From Marinobacter arenosus (GTDB lineage Bacteria > Pseudomonadota > Gammaproteobacteria > Pseudomonadales > Oleiphilaceae), in NCBI RefSeq assembly GCF_019264345.1, contig NZ_JAHVAO010000006.1:1-11507 (forward strand): 11,507 bases of DNA. Direction: 5' to 3'. Shown piece after piece: positions 4,428 through 10,508 of the stretch. Numbering within the stretch: position 1 is the stretch's first letter; every line of letters starts with the position of its first letter. The position numbers and the translations under genes were made by a program. Below the pieces are notes generated by a model. It saw only the letters and a program-made list of their open reading frames with translations, searched no databases and was not told the DNA's origin.

Positions 4428-4493
4428 CAATGTGGTCAACGGGACGCCAACTGCGCTGCGCTCCGTTGGCGCCCATTACCACTGGCGTTAATG
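4422..4493 (+). repeat. attC site 9
   Basis: Perfect R'' box GCCTAAC at 4422-4428 and R' box GTTAATG at 4487-4493. The apex stem is GCCAACTGCGC/GCTCCGTTGGC. Near-identical to attC 3, although the cassettes they close are unrelated. Confidence 0.94.
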
Positions 4494-4704
4494 GCCAAGA
4501 CCCCGGAAGGATTCAGGCAGTAAAGCAGGGAGTTACTTTCAAATTTTCACTTCCATTCAACTCCTCTCCCCGCAAAACACTGCAAAATCTGATAGTTCCG
4601 TGTTCTGGTTCCTCGCGCCATGGGCTAGTTTAGGTGCAAGCTGTTTGGTAAAGGGCATTCGGGTTTGGGTGCCAGGGATAAATCGCCGGGTAACCGGCCA
4701 TTAA
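4491..4704 (+). pseudogene. Decayed copy of the small duplicated cassette gene
   Basis: This stretch aligns end to end with the intact 70-codon gene at 10223-10435, at about 92% identity by eye. Relative to that copy, codon 11 is TAA instead of TTG (reading MAKTPEGFRQ then stop) and one extra base in the run TTTCAAATTTT shifts the frame. Both changes destroy the product. Differences cluster in the first 90 bases, and the last 120 or so bases carry only about three substitutions. If the cassette instead works as a non-coding element, this copy could still be functional. The 373 bases from 4428 to 4800 otherwise contain only attC 9, attC 10 and a short leader. Confidence 0.7.
4685..4698 (+). 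other. Conserved GNRA-loop hairpin next to attC 10
   Basis: GCCGG-GTAA-CCGGC forms a five-pair stem capped by a GNRA-type loop, immediately upstream of the R'' box. It is identical in the second copy at 10416-10429. In RNA it would be a stable small hairpin. Confidence 0.5.
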
Positions 4705-4777
4705 CAAGGCGCATCAGTACACGGCCGGTGGCCGCCGGACGCCACTGACGTGGCGCCGCTGTGCTTCGGCGTTATGT
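4699..4777 (+). repeat. attC site 10
   Basis: R'' box CATTAAC at 4699-4705 and R' box GTTATGT at 4771-4777. Lobes are CGGCC-GGT-GGCCG and CGCCAC-TGAC-GTGGCG. It differs from attC 19 at only about four positions before the R' box, three of them in the left-lobe loop. Confidence 0.94.
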
Positions 4778-6958: not shown

Positions 6959-7534
6959 ATGGCCCAGAATCCATTCTATGTCTATGCATTGAAAGACCCT
7001 AGAGAGCGACCTGCAAAAGCCTTTTATATTGGTAAAGGCACAGGGAATCGTGCGTGGGAGCATCAGACGGTAGAAGATGACAGCGAAAAAGGGCAGGTCA
7101 TCAAGGCAATACATGAGTCTGGCCATTCGGTGCTGCATACAGTTATCACTGACAATCTTAATGAAGAACAGGCACTCAAAATTGAAGCCGAATTGATTGC
7201 CGCATTTGGTATTCGTTCGCGGGGTGGGTTACTGACAAACAGGGTTCAACCGAATCCAGAAACCATCTCGAAAAAGGTCAGAGTCAATATACCGGAAGGC
7301 TGTTACGAAAAGGCTCAAATGGGGCTCGGCATACTGAAAAGCGCGGTCATGGAGCTCGCCAAGGCCAATCCTGAAGGGATTAAAAACTCTGATGCTGCCA
7401 AATATCTCGGACTCCAATCAGATTACGGTGGCGGTTCCAAAGACTATCTAACATACAGCCTTCTAGGTTTGTTAATGAAAGAGGGTCGTGTCGAGCGGAC
7501 CGAGAAAAGAAGGCACGTGGCGAAGTCTGAGTAA
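6959..7534 (+). CDS. GIY-YIG nuclease with C-terminal winged-helix-like domain
   Basis: This 191-residue protein starts at ATG 6959 behind AAGGA (6949-6953). The N-terminal half is a GIY-YIG nuclease domain: YVYALKD (residues 7-13, the GIY strand), FYIGKGTGNRAWEH (22-35, the YIG strand with Arg31), an acidic helix EEQALKIEAELIAAFG (69-84, catalytic Glu at 75 or 77) and LTNR (92-95, the conserved Asn). FYIGKG with a nearby RAxxH is typical of LEM3-like GIY-YIG proteins. Residues 125-185 (VMELAKANPEGIKNSDAAKY, YLTYSLLGLLMKEGRVER) look like a winged helix, as in some restriction-type nucleases. A DNA-cleaving role in defence or repair is likely, with target unknown. No partner methylase is present. 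The in-frame upstream start at 6890 lies in attC 14 and is rejected. Confidence 0.86.
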   Translation: MAQNPFYVYALKDPRERPAKAFYIGKGTGNRAWEHQTVEDDSEKGQVIKAIHESGHSVLHTVITDNLNEEQALKIEAELIAAFGIRSRGGLLTNRVQPNPETISKKVRVNIPEGCYEKAQMGLGILKSAVMELAKANPEGIKNSDAAKYLGLQSDYGGGSKDYLTYSLLGLLMKEGRVERTEKRRHVAKSE

Positions 7535-7537
7535 AAC

Positions 7538-7615
7538 ATTTAACAAGGGGCTGCAGCGGACCGCTTTTCCGGCGCGTTGCGCCTCCAAATCGGCCGCTGA
7601 GCCCAGGCGTTACAT
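7538..7615 (+). repeat. attC site 15
   Basis: Perfect R'' box ATTTAAC at 7538-7544 and R' box GTTACAT at 7609-7615. The apex is GGCGCG-TT-GCGCC with flanking GCGGACCGCTTTTCC and AAATCGGCCGC. Closest to attC 2. Confidence 0.92.
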
Positions 7616-7649
7616 GTTCGAGTCGTTCATCAAAATAGGAACTAAATAA
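7614..7649 (+). other. Eleven-codon leader ORF abutting the DUF262-HNH gene
   Basis: ATG 7614, formed by the R' box, reads MFESFIKIGTK and stops at TAA 7647-7649. The next base begins the ATG of the nuclease gene, in the same frame. The layout recalls ORF-11 of attI1, a short ORF known to boost translation of the adjacent cassette, but here it sits inside the cassette. Confidence 0.4.
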
Positions 7650-9221
7650 ATGGCATCAAAATCAAATCTCGTTAATTTAGACGCTATGATAAAACGAGCT
7701 GACTTTGCCTCTGACGATGACGATAAATCAACATTTGAGACTTTTAATAGCATTCCCGCTAGAGAGCTAGCATCCGGAAATCCGATTGTTTCACTTCTGA
7801 GGAAGCCAGATTTTCAAAGAGAGACTAATCACTGGGCTCCCGATCAAGTGGTGTCACTTCTTGAGTGCTATATAAATGGTGATTTAATCCCGTCGGTCAT
7901 TCTATGGAAGTCCCCAACATATCTTTTTGTTATTGATGGCGGTCATAGGTTAAGCGTAATAAGGGCATGGATAGAAGATGATTATGGTGATGGCCCTATA
8001 TCGCATAAGCTCTTTGGTCATGATATTTCGCTAGAACAGAAAAAGGCAGCGGAAAAGACCAGAAAGCTCATAAATGAAAAAGTTGGCTCGTGGAATTACT
8101 ATAAAACTTTGTTAGATGATGACGAAAATATCACTCCTGAACAACGAAAGAGGCTGTCGACCATTACGACGAGGGGCTTATCTGTCCAGTGGGTAAAAGG
8201 AGATGCCGACAAAGCTGAAACGTCATTTTTTAATATCAATATGAAAGGCACGCCTCTCGACGATATTGAAGAAGTTCTTTTAAGAAACCGGAAAAGGCCA
8301 GTCCCTATAGCCGCGAGAGCGATAATTAGAGCGGGAAAGGGCCACAGGTATTGGTCTCGATTTAAACAAGAAAAAACTGACCTTATTGAAAGTGAGGCAT
8401 CGAAGCTTCATAAATTGCTGTTCAACCCTGAGATTGAGAAGCCTGTAAGAACCCTAGACCTACCTCTTGGTGGTTCTAAAGGTGTTCGTAATGCTGTGCA
8501 AGTGTTGATTGAGTTCATGCTGATTGCTAATCGACAACAACAAAAGCCTCTACCAAAAATTGATGGCTTTAATGAAGACAATGATGGTTCTTTGACTATT
8601 AATGTTCTGAAAAACGCGAAAAAACTTGCGAGCCGAATAACTGGAAATGGCGACGGAAGCTTAGGTCTGCATCCAGCAATATATTTTTACGGTCCATCTG
8701 GAAGGCATTCCAGCCCGATGTTTCTAGGGACTGTTTCTCTAATCGGTCAGAAGCTAGCCAATAACGACTCAGAATTCTTTAACAAGTTTACTTCGGTGCG
8801 ATCAAAGCTTGAACTTATTCTTATTGAAAATAAGGAGTTGATAGCTACTATCATTCAGAAGCATTTGAGCAGGAACAGAATTCCTAAATACCACGATTTT
8901 CTCCAAGTTCTAATAGATGCCCTCTACCGAAATAAGTCAGTAGAAGCTAATGATTTAGTAAAATTTTCTGAGCTTGAGGGAAAAATTATCGCAGGTGATT
9001 TTAAAAAGACTACGTCTAAAATCTCGGACGATACTAAAAGCAAAGTATTTATAAGTGTTGCCTTAAATAGCGCGCTCAAATGCCCAATTTGTGATGGATA
9101 CTTAGATATTGAGAAATCAGTTTCCTATGATCATATTGAAAGGGTAAGGGAGGGCGGTTCTGGCGAAGCGGAGAACTGTCAACTGACACATCCATATTGC
9201 AACCAGTCAGTTAAGAATTAG
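7650..9221 (+). CDS. DUF262-HNH nuclease, candidate anti-phage protein
   Basis: This is the largest gene of the window, at 523 residues. The N-terminal part is a DUF262 (ParB-like) domain: PDFQR at 53-57, a hydrophobic stretch to PSVILWK (81-87), then VIDGGHRLSVIRAW (94-107), where the D-G-x-x-R core is the nucleotide-handling signature of the superfamily. A mostly helical middle follows. The C-terminus is a zinc-type HNH endonuclease: CPIC (478-481), DHI with Asp494/His495, Asn509, His514 and CN (517-518), so both the CxxC and H..C metal ligands and the catalytic His are present. DUF262 joined to a His-Me finger nuclease is the arrangement of GmrSD-type restriction, but here the nuclease is HNH rather than DUF1524. 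ATG 7650 follows AGGA (7637-7640). The gene is visibly more AT-rich than its neighbours, which suggests a different source. Confidence 0.9.
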   Translation: MASKSNLVNLDAMIKRADFASDDDDKSTFETFNSIPARELASGNPIVSLLRKPDFQRETNHWAPDQVVSLLECYINGDLIPSVILWKSPTYLFVIDGGHRLSVIRAWIEDDYGDGPISHKLFGHDISLEQKKAAEKTRKLINEKVGSWNYYKTLLDDDENITPEQRKRLSTITTRGLSVQWVKGDADKAETSFFNINMKGTPLDDIEEVLLRNRKRPVPIAARAIIRAGKGHRYWSRFKQEKTDLIESEASKLHKLLFNPEIEKPVRTLDLPLGGSKGVRNAVQVLIEFMLIANRQQQKPLPKIDGFNEDNDGSLTINVLKNAKKLASRITGNGDGSLGLHPAIYFYGPSGRHSSPMFLGTVSLIGQKLANNDSEFFNKFTSVRSKLELILIENKELIATIIQKHLSRNRIPKYHDFLQVLIDALYRNKSVEANDLVKFSELEGKIIAGDFKKTTSKISDDTKSKVFISVALNSALKCPICDGYLDIEKSVSYDHIERVREGGSGEAENCQLTHPYCNQSVKN

Positions 9222-9222
9222 C

Positions 9223-9291
9223 ATGTAACAAGGTGCTGCTAGGGACAAATCTACGCTGCGCTCCGATTTGCCCCAGAGCACGGCGTTAAAC
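9223..9291 (+). repeat. attC site 16
   Basis: R'' box ATGTAAC at 9223-9229 (imperfect third position) and perfect R' box GTTAAAC at 9285-9291. Compact single stem GGACAAATC-TACGCTGCGCTCC-GATTTGCCC. It has the ordinary size and style of the array although its gene is AT-rich. Confidence 0.91.
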
Positions 9292-9305
9292 GTAAGGGAG
9301 TAAGC

Positions 9306-9662
9306 ATGAGGCTTGAGAAAGAAATCCTGCGGTACTCAAGACTAAATGGTTACCCAATAGACGAGTATGCGCCGGTTGTTTGTTCTTGTGGTTGCCGCGA
9401 ACTTCAATTGTTTTCGGATGATGATGAAGGCGGCGCTTTTGGTGTCTGTACTAAGTGCGGATCTGAGATCGATATCGAAAACAGCAAACGCTACATGGAA
9501 GAGACTTTTCAAAACCTCTGCCAATGCGACAACGACCGGATGGAATTGGGCGTGGGAACGTCCGTTTATCCCGACACTCACAATGCACGGTGGATCTACA
9601 TCGGCGCTCAATGCGGGAAATGTAATCTCGTGGGTGTTTACGTGGACTGGAAGGAATCCTGA
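9306..9662 (+). CDS. Cys-rich zinc-ribbon-like conserved hypothetical protein
   Basis: This 118-residue protein starts at ATG 9306 behind GGGAG (9296-9300). Nine cysteines are arranged as CSCGC (26-30), CTKC (48-51), CQCDND (72-77) and CGKC (103-106), enough for two zinc sites that pair 26-30 with 48-51 and 72-74 with 103-106. The end RWIYIGAQC...VGVYVDWKES resembles a small conserved hypothetical family in which the two zinc knuckles are followed by a terminal DWK(N/E), but I know no named function. There is no signal peptide, so it is cytoplasmic. A structural zinc role or binding of nucleic acid is possible. TGA at 9660-9662 precedes attC 17. Confidence 0.82.
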   Translation: MRLEKEILRYSRLNGYPIDEYAPVVCSCGCRELQLFSDDDEGGAFGVCTKCGSEIDIENSKRYMEETFQNLCQCDNDRMELGVGTSVYPDTHNARWIYIGAQCGKCNLVGVYVDWKES

Positions 9663-10143: not shown

Positions 10144-10225
10144 CCATTCATTCAAGTACGTTCCCGGCCTGGCGGCCGTCCACCGGACGCCCCTGTCGGG
10201 GCGCCGCTTAATATTGGCGTTAATG
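10138..10225 (+). repeat. attC site 18
   Basis: R'' box CTCTAAC at 10138-10144 and R' box GTTAATG at 10219-10225. Right lobe CGCCCC-TGTC-GGGGCG. It shares the outer arms of attC 4 (CCATTCATTCAAG and CTTAATATTGGCG) exactly, but closes an unrelated gene. Confidence 0.94.
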
Positions 10226-10435
10226 GCCAGGGACACGGAAGAATTCAGGCAGTTGAGCAGGGAGTTGCTTTCAATTATCACGTCAGTTCAACTCTTCTCC
10301 CCGCAAAACACTGCAAAATCTGAGAGTTCCGTGTTCTGGTTCCTCGCGCCATGGGCTAGGTTAGGTGCAAGCTGTTTGGTCAAGGGCATTCGGGTTTGGG
10401 TGCCAGGGATAAATCGCCGGGTAACCGGCCATTAA
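10223..10435 (+). CDS. Small hypothetical protein, intact copy of the duplicated cassette
   Basis: Seventy codons run from ATG 10223 to TAA 10433-10435. The product starts MARDTEEFRQLSRELLSI and continues with a Ser-rich part and a hydrophobic, Trp/Arg-containing second half (SSVFWFLAPWARLGASCLVKGI, ending RRVTGH). It has no signal peptide by the usual pattern. The ATG is formed by the R' box of attC 18 and has no space for its own ribosome-binding site. The cassette recurs in decayed form at 4491-4704. Because the second half is better conserved at the DNA level than the first, and ends in a GNRA-loop hairpin, a non-coding role of the 3' part is an alternative to a protein. Confidence 0.55.
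   Translation: MARDTEEFRQLSRELLSIITSVQLFSPQNTAKSESSVFWFLAPWARLGASCLVKGIRVWVPGINRRVTGH
10416..10429 (+). other. Conserved GNRA-loop hairpin next to attC 19
   Basis: Same GCCGG-GTAA-CCGGC element as at 4685-4698. In this copy it lies within the last codons of the 70-residue ORF, directly before the R'' box. Confidence 0.5.
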
Positions 10436-10508
10436 CAAGGCGCATCAGTACGCGGCCTTCGGCCGCCGGACGCCACTGACGTGGCGCCGCTGTGCTTCGG
10501 CGTTATAT
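10430..10508 (+). repeat. attC site 19
   Basis: R'' box CATTAAC at 10430-10436 and R' box GTTATAT at 10502-10508. Left lobe GCGGCC-TTC-GGCCGC (a C-TTCG-G loop) and right lobe CGCCAC-TGAC-GTGGCG. Partner of attC 10. Confidence 0.94.

Follow-up and report, generated by a model that had tools for sequence, protein, structure and literature searches.

The DNA analysed here (the window) is a stretch of 11,507 nt from Marinobacter arenosus, and the element under study is a cassette holding one gene, which encodes a 523-aa protein with a DUF262 domain and an HNH nuclease domain. The window is a piece of an integron cassette array, with 21 attC-like sites in 11.5 kb. A first-pass annotation, made from the letters of the sequence, had described the gene as complete, as lying in one cassette (7610–9285) with its own attC site and as AT-rich unlike its neighbours. 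Each of these points was borne out: GCGTTA cores and folding attC sites were found for the cassette, and the G+C content of the gene was 40%, compared with 49% for the window and 44–57% for 17 other listed cassette open reading frames (ORFs). It is also the longest cassette gene of the window. The assignment as an integron gene cassette is based on an ORF placed between attC sites in an array, with an integron integrase in the same 4.11-Mb genome (G000:C5:513–1448; TIGR02249, 427 bits against a cut-off of 265). A consensus promoter scan of positions 7400–9400 gave five promoter-like sites (3.8 ± 1.8 in shuffled sequences), all within the gene, so its expression probably depends on the array.

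The profile searches that the first-pass annotation had proposed (DUF262, HNH and DUF1524) found the first two domains and not the third. PF03235 matched with an expectation value (E) of 1.1e-11 and 45.7 bits (cut-off 33.2), PF01844 matched at aa 478–521 with E = 1.4e-5, above its curated cut-off, and the PDFQR (aa 53–57) and DGGHR (aa 96–100) motifs and the intact zinc HNH noted earlier were present. An hmmscan of Pfam-A to E = 10 returned only GmrSD_N and HNH PF01844, with no match to DUF1524 (PF07510). The family profile phrog_29172, annotated in PHROG as of unknown function, aligned end to end with the protein (E = 4.9e-245), and the gene is therefore not a chance ORF. Within the HNH domain, we take C478, C481, H514 and C517 to be the zinc ligands and D494-H495, N509 and N518 to form the active site. 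The motif and active-site residues were invariant in 69 aligned family members, apart from one zinc ligand in one Escherichia coli strain, and the second motif took the form DG(G/A/C/S)HR in 69 of 69. In the exceptional strain, E. coli A10, H514 is replaced by proline; two other E. coli copies inspected keep the histidine, and the substitution may represent a natural loss of function.

The predicted model of aa 205–523 had a predicted local distance difference test (pLDDT) score of 89.7. In a separate fold search, the protein bore a weak resemblance to BrxU, SspE and ParB, with BrxU as the top row. Solved structures searched by sequence gave nothing significant, and the C-terminal part alone matched nothing beyond HNH in the fold search, which does not demonstrate a new fold. 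No significant full-length match was obtained among the PADLOC defence families; the best was NsnA (E = 1.5e-4, aa 52–113), a name not found in a limited literature search.

Table 1. Features of the DUF262-HNH cassette (window positions; z, folding of attC sites against shuffles)
Feature	Position	Strand	Residues	Evidence or remark
Integron gene cassette	7610..9285	+		About 1.68 kb, one gene; bounded by GCGTTA core sites at 7607 and 9283
attC of preceding cassette (left boundary)	7541..7614	+		Bottom-strand hairpin, z −4.43
Candidate ribosome-binding site, AGGA	7637..7640	+		9 nt before ATG, from sequence reading
DUF262-HNH gene	7650..9221	+	523 aa	Complete ORF, ATG start; full-length family profile match
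GmrSD_N/DUF262 (ParB/Srx-like) domain, presumed NTP-dependent sensor	7797..8279	+	aa 50–210	Pfam PF03235; BrxU, SspE and ParB/Noc fold rows
KPDFQR (QR motif)	7803..7820	+	aa 52–57	P53, F55, Q56, R57 in 69/69 members
DGGHR (DGQQR equivalent)	7935..7949	+	aa 96–100	D96, G97, H99, R100 in 69/69; position 98 is G in 59/69
FxxxN motif	8226..8240	+	aa 193–197	F193, N197 in 69/69
Helical middle region, putative linker or DNA recognition role	8262..9068	+	aa 205–473	Predicted model of aa 205–523; fold search gave no convincing match
Zinc HNH nuclease	9081..9212	+	aa 478–521	C478-PI-C481, D494-H495, N509, H514-PY-C517-N518
attC of DUF262-HNH cassette	9226..9290	+		R''/R' boxes; bottom-strand hairpin, z −2.31

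To E = 1e-3, the family comprised 3093 proteins among 7998 scored. Full-length relatives were found in Burkholderia phage KL3 (63% identity), filamentous phage Pf8 (38%) and six plasmid records; the family has members on plasmids and phages, in integrons and on an island of E. coli, and its full domain layout is kept across phyla. Of 5426 E. coli genomes, 53 matched the window DNA at 60–80% identity, and 40 genomes carried the same gene at at least 99% (39 of the 40 over at least 80% of the gene). In the two E. coli copies with flanks, the gene is cargo in the interval from rcnR to thiM; it lies next to a tyrosine recombinase, and a thiamine pyrophosphate (TPP) riboswitch is annotated on either side. 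The gene was rare in the genome samples, at 2 of 58 relatives, 3 of 369 genomes in the class (one HNH-only) and 3 of 398 in the phylum (one being two fragments), counts that always take in the genome of the window itself. Such a patchy, rare distribution is typical of mobile accessory genes. The plasmid records matched numbered 48, 42 of them from Acinetobacter. In Neptunicella (L022) and Marinomonas (L052 and L061), the gene was cut near contig ends, perhaps by insertion, and in Kushneria (L004) and Massilia (L020) it comes after the gene for GMP synthase, which may be a site where islands insert.

To recognize integron copies elsewhere, the flanks of 20 loci were inspected by eye, and three of these loci were also folded. 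The attC site of L011 (Methylophilus) folded clearly better than shuffles (z −2.82), that of L035 weakly so (−1.64) and that of L007 no better (+0.30). On the family tree, the four integron rows require four label changes, a count of independent captures that is tentative because L011 was the only one of the three to beat its shuffles clearly. Two home-made attC scanners were too strict (0 and 2 distinct window sites) and were set aside; a looser pattern recovered 12 of the 21 window sites. A second array with 15 paired attC sites lies on the 7-kb contig C7 of the same genome, and the integrase is near the start of contig C5; the window, C5 and C7 may be pieces of one broken-up integron. The product of the cassette immediately upstream of the DUF262-HNH cassette (6959–7531, + strand) has a LEM-3-like GIY-YIG domain (PF22945, E = 6.3e-10), so that two nuclease-type cassettes adjoin. 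Elsewhere in the window, two cassette copies (4483–4775 and 10215–10506) share 93% identity over 293 columns, with longest listed ORFs of 67 and 73 aa.

Neighbourhoods were counted for 61 of 68 genome loci, leaving out a near-identical cassette (L002), a split gene (L022) and fragments (L061, L064, L065, L067 and L069); 222 of 224 near neighbour proteins (two were too long) and 134 of 166 far ones (size limit) were scanned. The neighbours vary by locus and many are ordinary chromosomal genes, with some loci beside restriction-modification genes or genes of bacteriophage exclusion (BREX) or cyclic-oligonucleotide-based anti-phage signalling system (CBASS)-like types. No constant partner gene, housekeeping or other, appeared in the neighbour tallies; the first-pass annotation had named homologues found only in housekeeping contexts as a refuting case. 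Among individual loci, the Acinetobacter plasmid pARA2 carries a distant relative (25% identity, aa 44–365) with a BREX-type cluster (DUF1819, DUF1788, brxC) about 3.5 kb downstream of it. A relative with 34% identity, on a plasmid of Burkholderia glumae, points away from a cluster of DncV-like cyclase, ThiF and Mov34 genes in which the annotation shows no obvious effector. In a genome of the same genus as the window (G030), the gene after a relative with 39–40% identity has a product that matches the PADLOC candidate PDC-S49 (E = 3.6e-19).

A recurrent association did emerge, with C5 DNA methylases, and the first-pass annotation had no view of it from the window sequence. A C5 DNA methylase domain was present in 8 of the 222 nearest-neighbour proteins, and in the second half of the neighbours (119 proteins) EcoRII-C and Vsr were each present in four; the latter two counts apply to that half, as they were taken from the leading 25 families of each half. 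The 134 proteins more than 6.5 kb away contained no methylase by PADLOC, the sole scan used on them, yet nine other defence families were found there. With the KL3 methylase, Vsr and EcoRII-C proteins as queries, 25 matches were obtained outside KL3, of which 24 lay within 2.3 kb of the family gene. In total, 11 of the 61 loci plus phage KL3 have a C5 methylase or Vsr gene within 2.3 kb, mostly in an EcoRII/Dcm-type module. A match more than 2.5 kb away was seen at one locus, though 72% of the flanking sequence lies at that distance (278 kb near, 711 kb far); the binomial p for nearness is about 8e-6, with a cut chosen after the distances were seen and with kinship uncorrected.

The arrangement differs between the linked loci. 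With M for the methylase and R for the restriction enzyme, the order is M-Vsr-R-gene in KL3 and likewise in Luteimonas, where R is poorly conserved, M-x-gene-Vsr-R in Thiobacillus, M-R-gene-Vsr in Granulicella and gene-M-Vsr-R on a Rhodobacteraceae contig, and at two further loci (L041 and L042) the gene is convergent with R-(Vsr)-M. In the Thiobacillus and Granulicella loci, the stop codon of the family gene overlaps the Vsr start (TAATG). One locus (L037) has an MvaI/BcnI-type enzyme (PF15515) in place of EcoRII. A KL3-like methylase (48–65% identity) was present at 8 of the 11 linked loci, and other C5 methylases at L044, L046 and L063. R varies across the linked loci, and the partners met most often are thus Vsr and the C5 methylase, not one restriction enzyme. 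The Andreprevotia locus (L044) also contains an AIPR protein.

Mapping the 12 linked rows on the family tree takes eight changes, seven of them forced by well-supported branches, and the linkage arises in several lineages; the linked rows are nonetheless more clustered than random (3 of 500 shuffles were as low). The linkage is optional: 50 of the 61 loci have no KL3-type partners nearby, and three of three annotated plasmid EcoRII modules had no family gene within 5 kb. KL3-type methylase, Vsr and EcoRII also gave no match when searched for at 31 loci on viral contigs and at five loci of plasmids or Pf8 (some contigs being counted twice). A limited literature search found no description of the linkage, and passages of PMC3091744, PMC12707154 and PMC3710099 do not describe it. 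A figure legend of the paper on KKP lists DNA_methylase, DUF262 and HNH among the domains near KKP loci, so the neighbourhood may already have been noticed by others who did not remark on it.

Taken with the conservation of the whole architecture across phyla, the association with restriction-modification genes makes it highly improbable, intron and intein contexts not having been searched for, that the family has no defence role and is a selfish homing-type HNH nuclease or a ParB-like partition accessory on mobile DNA, for which the ParB-fold domain and the carriage by phages and plasmids could be cited. HNH domains are typical of homing nucleases, and this was also counted in its favour.

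The cassette protein is, with moderate confidence, predicted to be a GmrSD-like (type IV) restriction nuclease made as a single chain and encoded on an integron cassette. This prediction draws on sequence and model, namely a DUF262 domain of the ParB/Srx type in which the QR, DGxxR and FxxxN motifs are present, followed by a helical middle and an intact zinc HNH, and on family-wide conservation. In type IV relatives, the DUF262 domain uses nucleoside triphosphate (NTP) to control the C-terminal nuclease (PMC12137116; PMC10952713). The DUF262 domain here would bind and hydrolyse NTP and recognize some property of incoming DNA. This is most likely a modified base distinct from ordinary 5-methylcytosine (5mC), for example hydroxymethylcytosine (5hmC) or glucosyl-hydroxymethylcytosine (glc-5hmC); sensing would then release the HNH domain to cut or nick that DNA.

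The hosts and the operons speak against ordinary 5mC. C5 methylases were found in 31 of 50 hosts of unlinked copies and in 120 of 200 background genomes, a comparison that showed no difference and in which genome completeness is not stated, some genomes are metagenome-assembled, and the background is the phylum of the window while the 50 hosts span several phyla. The 50 hosts were drawn from 57 unlinked loci, leaving out L052, L058, L061, L064, L065, L067 and L069. That host methylase content equals the background argues against 5mC as target or required cofactor, and both roles are considered unlikely. An operon shared with a C5 methylase further suggests tolerance of at least that 5mC pattern. 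One published observation weighs against such discrimination: BrxU, a relative in fold, cuts 5mC DNA as well as 5hmC and glc-5hmC DNA (PMC8565348). It would favour a 5mC-dependent nuclease, McrBC-like in target, that destroys DNA with foreign 5mC patterns, as would the members that adjoin C5 methylases. This is judged very unlikely, since a nuclease encoded together with a C5 methylase would presumably kill its own host by cutting 5mC in that context, C5 methylases are no scarcer than background among hosts of unlinked copies and the genome of the window itself has one. That methylase, the only one found in the genome (L106, G000:C1:2198000-2216000), has long unannotated ORFs (513 and 1811 aa) in its vicinity, and the KL3 EcoRII methylase gives no tblastn match there.

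The same host survey bears on an SspE-like effector that needs host cytosine methylation from a linked methylase as an activating or self mark. SspE ranks near the top of the fold search, depends on phosphorothioation of the host DNA (PMC9646914) and is described as arresting growth without its modification partner (PMC12707154), and the methylase linkage arose in several lineages. No C5 methylase was found, however, in 19 of the 50 unlinked hosts, so at least those copies should need none unless the genomes are incomplete, and an effector of this kind seems improbable. An abortive-infection nuclease that responds to another infection cue and cuts host and phage DNA, perhaps under a partner system, is unlikely. 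The CBASS-like cluster beside the B. glumae relative and the AIPR protein in Andreprevotia would fit it, as would the extreme toxicity on expression of two other GmrSD systems (PMC12373910) and the proposal that PFLU4242 (DUF262-DUF1524), when plasmids are resident, breaks DNA and sets off the SOS response (PMC8544851). The neighbour tallies, with no constant partner, and the single gene of the cassette speak against it, and the idea of a CBASS effector comes from the one B. glumae plasmid locus.

Returning to the GmrSD-like restriction nuclease, in some lineages its gene would be the fourth of an EcoRII/Dcm-type restriction-modification module, and the protein would deal with phages that evade the main enzyme through modified cytosines, in the way that BrxU complements BREX. 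The cassette would be a detached, mobile form that stands alone in integrons, islands and phages. We tentatively suggest, as a possibility short of an even chance, that the family is an unrecognized optional fourth component of Dcm/EcoRII-type systems (C5 methylase, Vsr and restriction enzyme), tolerant of 5mC, sensing modification, and repeatedly detached as an integron, phage or island gene acting alone. If these readings were correct, an HNH branch would be added to the type IV restriction enzymes, and the genome would offer a clue to specificity, as an enzyme encoded in one operon with a C5 methylase must leave the 5mC of that methylase alone. The substrate question would be testable, and an enzyme telling hydroxymethyl- from methylcytosine would be possible. 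The module would be a two-layer design, type II and type IV together, like BREX with BrxU, and would show how one layer spreads alone in integrons.

Compared with known systems, the cassette protein shares with the GmrSD family (DUF262 + DUF1524) an N-terminal DUF262 domain, the QR, DGxxR and FxxxN motifs and a C-terminal His-Me-superfamily nuclease in a single chain; the GmrSD QR and FxxxN motifs (PMC12137116) correspond to Q56, R57, F193 and N197. It differs in having the PF01844 zinc HNH instead of PF07510/DUF1524, in reading DGGHR where the canonical family has DGQQR, conserved at nearly 100% (PMC4619093), and in the linkage of some members to C5 methylase/Vsr modules. With two canonical features lacking, DUF1524 and DGQQR, it was filed as GmrSD-like and not as GmrSD. 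The first-pass annotation was right that the nuclease is different from DUF1524, with a smaller contrast than it implied, DUF1524 itself being placed in the His-Me/HNH superfamily (PMC4619093).

Its compact single-protein module on a mobile cassette also stands, while the description as a candidate new system is only partly supported. Single-gene ParB_n/DUF262 + HNH proteins are already on record among the type IV restriction architectures. Enterobacteria have single-gene DUF262 enzymes with either an HNH or a DUF1524 nuclease, and when representatives of 15 DUF262 groups were produced, five beyond the known three were active against T-even phages (PMC12373910). The single-gene ParB_n-HNH GmrSD variants of Enterobacteria (within CLS_001-020) have the same domain architecture, a likeness drawn from their description, and the cassette gene likewise has both domains in one chain with no obligate partner, as the single-gene cassette and the 50 partnerless loci indicate. 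Anti-phage cassettes of integrons, type IV restriction included, have also been reported (Darracq 2025; Kieffer 2025, via PMC12409362) and are, as described there, similarly compact single-gene candidates in attC arrays. SspE and DndI are phosphorothioate-sensing effectors, whereas the cassette has no phosphorothioation gene (family loci were not searched for these). In phage KL3, gp44, the 63%-identical member, adjoins the EcoRII-type module gp45–gp47, described as a three-gene module with gp44 listed as unknown (PMC3091744), and the window cassette has no such module. The single-gene DUF262-HNH architecture and type IV restriction in integrons are thus already known; the methylase/Vsr linkage and the strict HNH/DGGHR subfamily are what is new, as far as the limited literature search shows.
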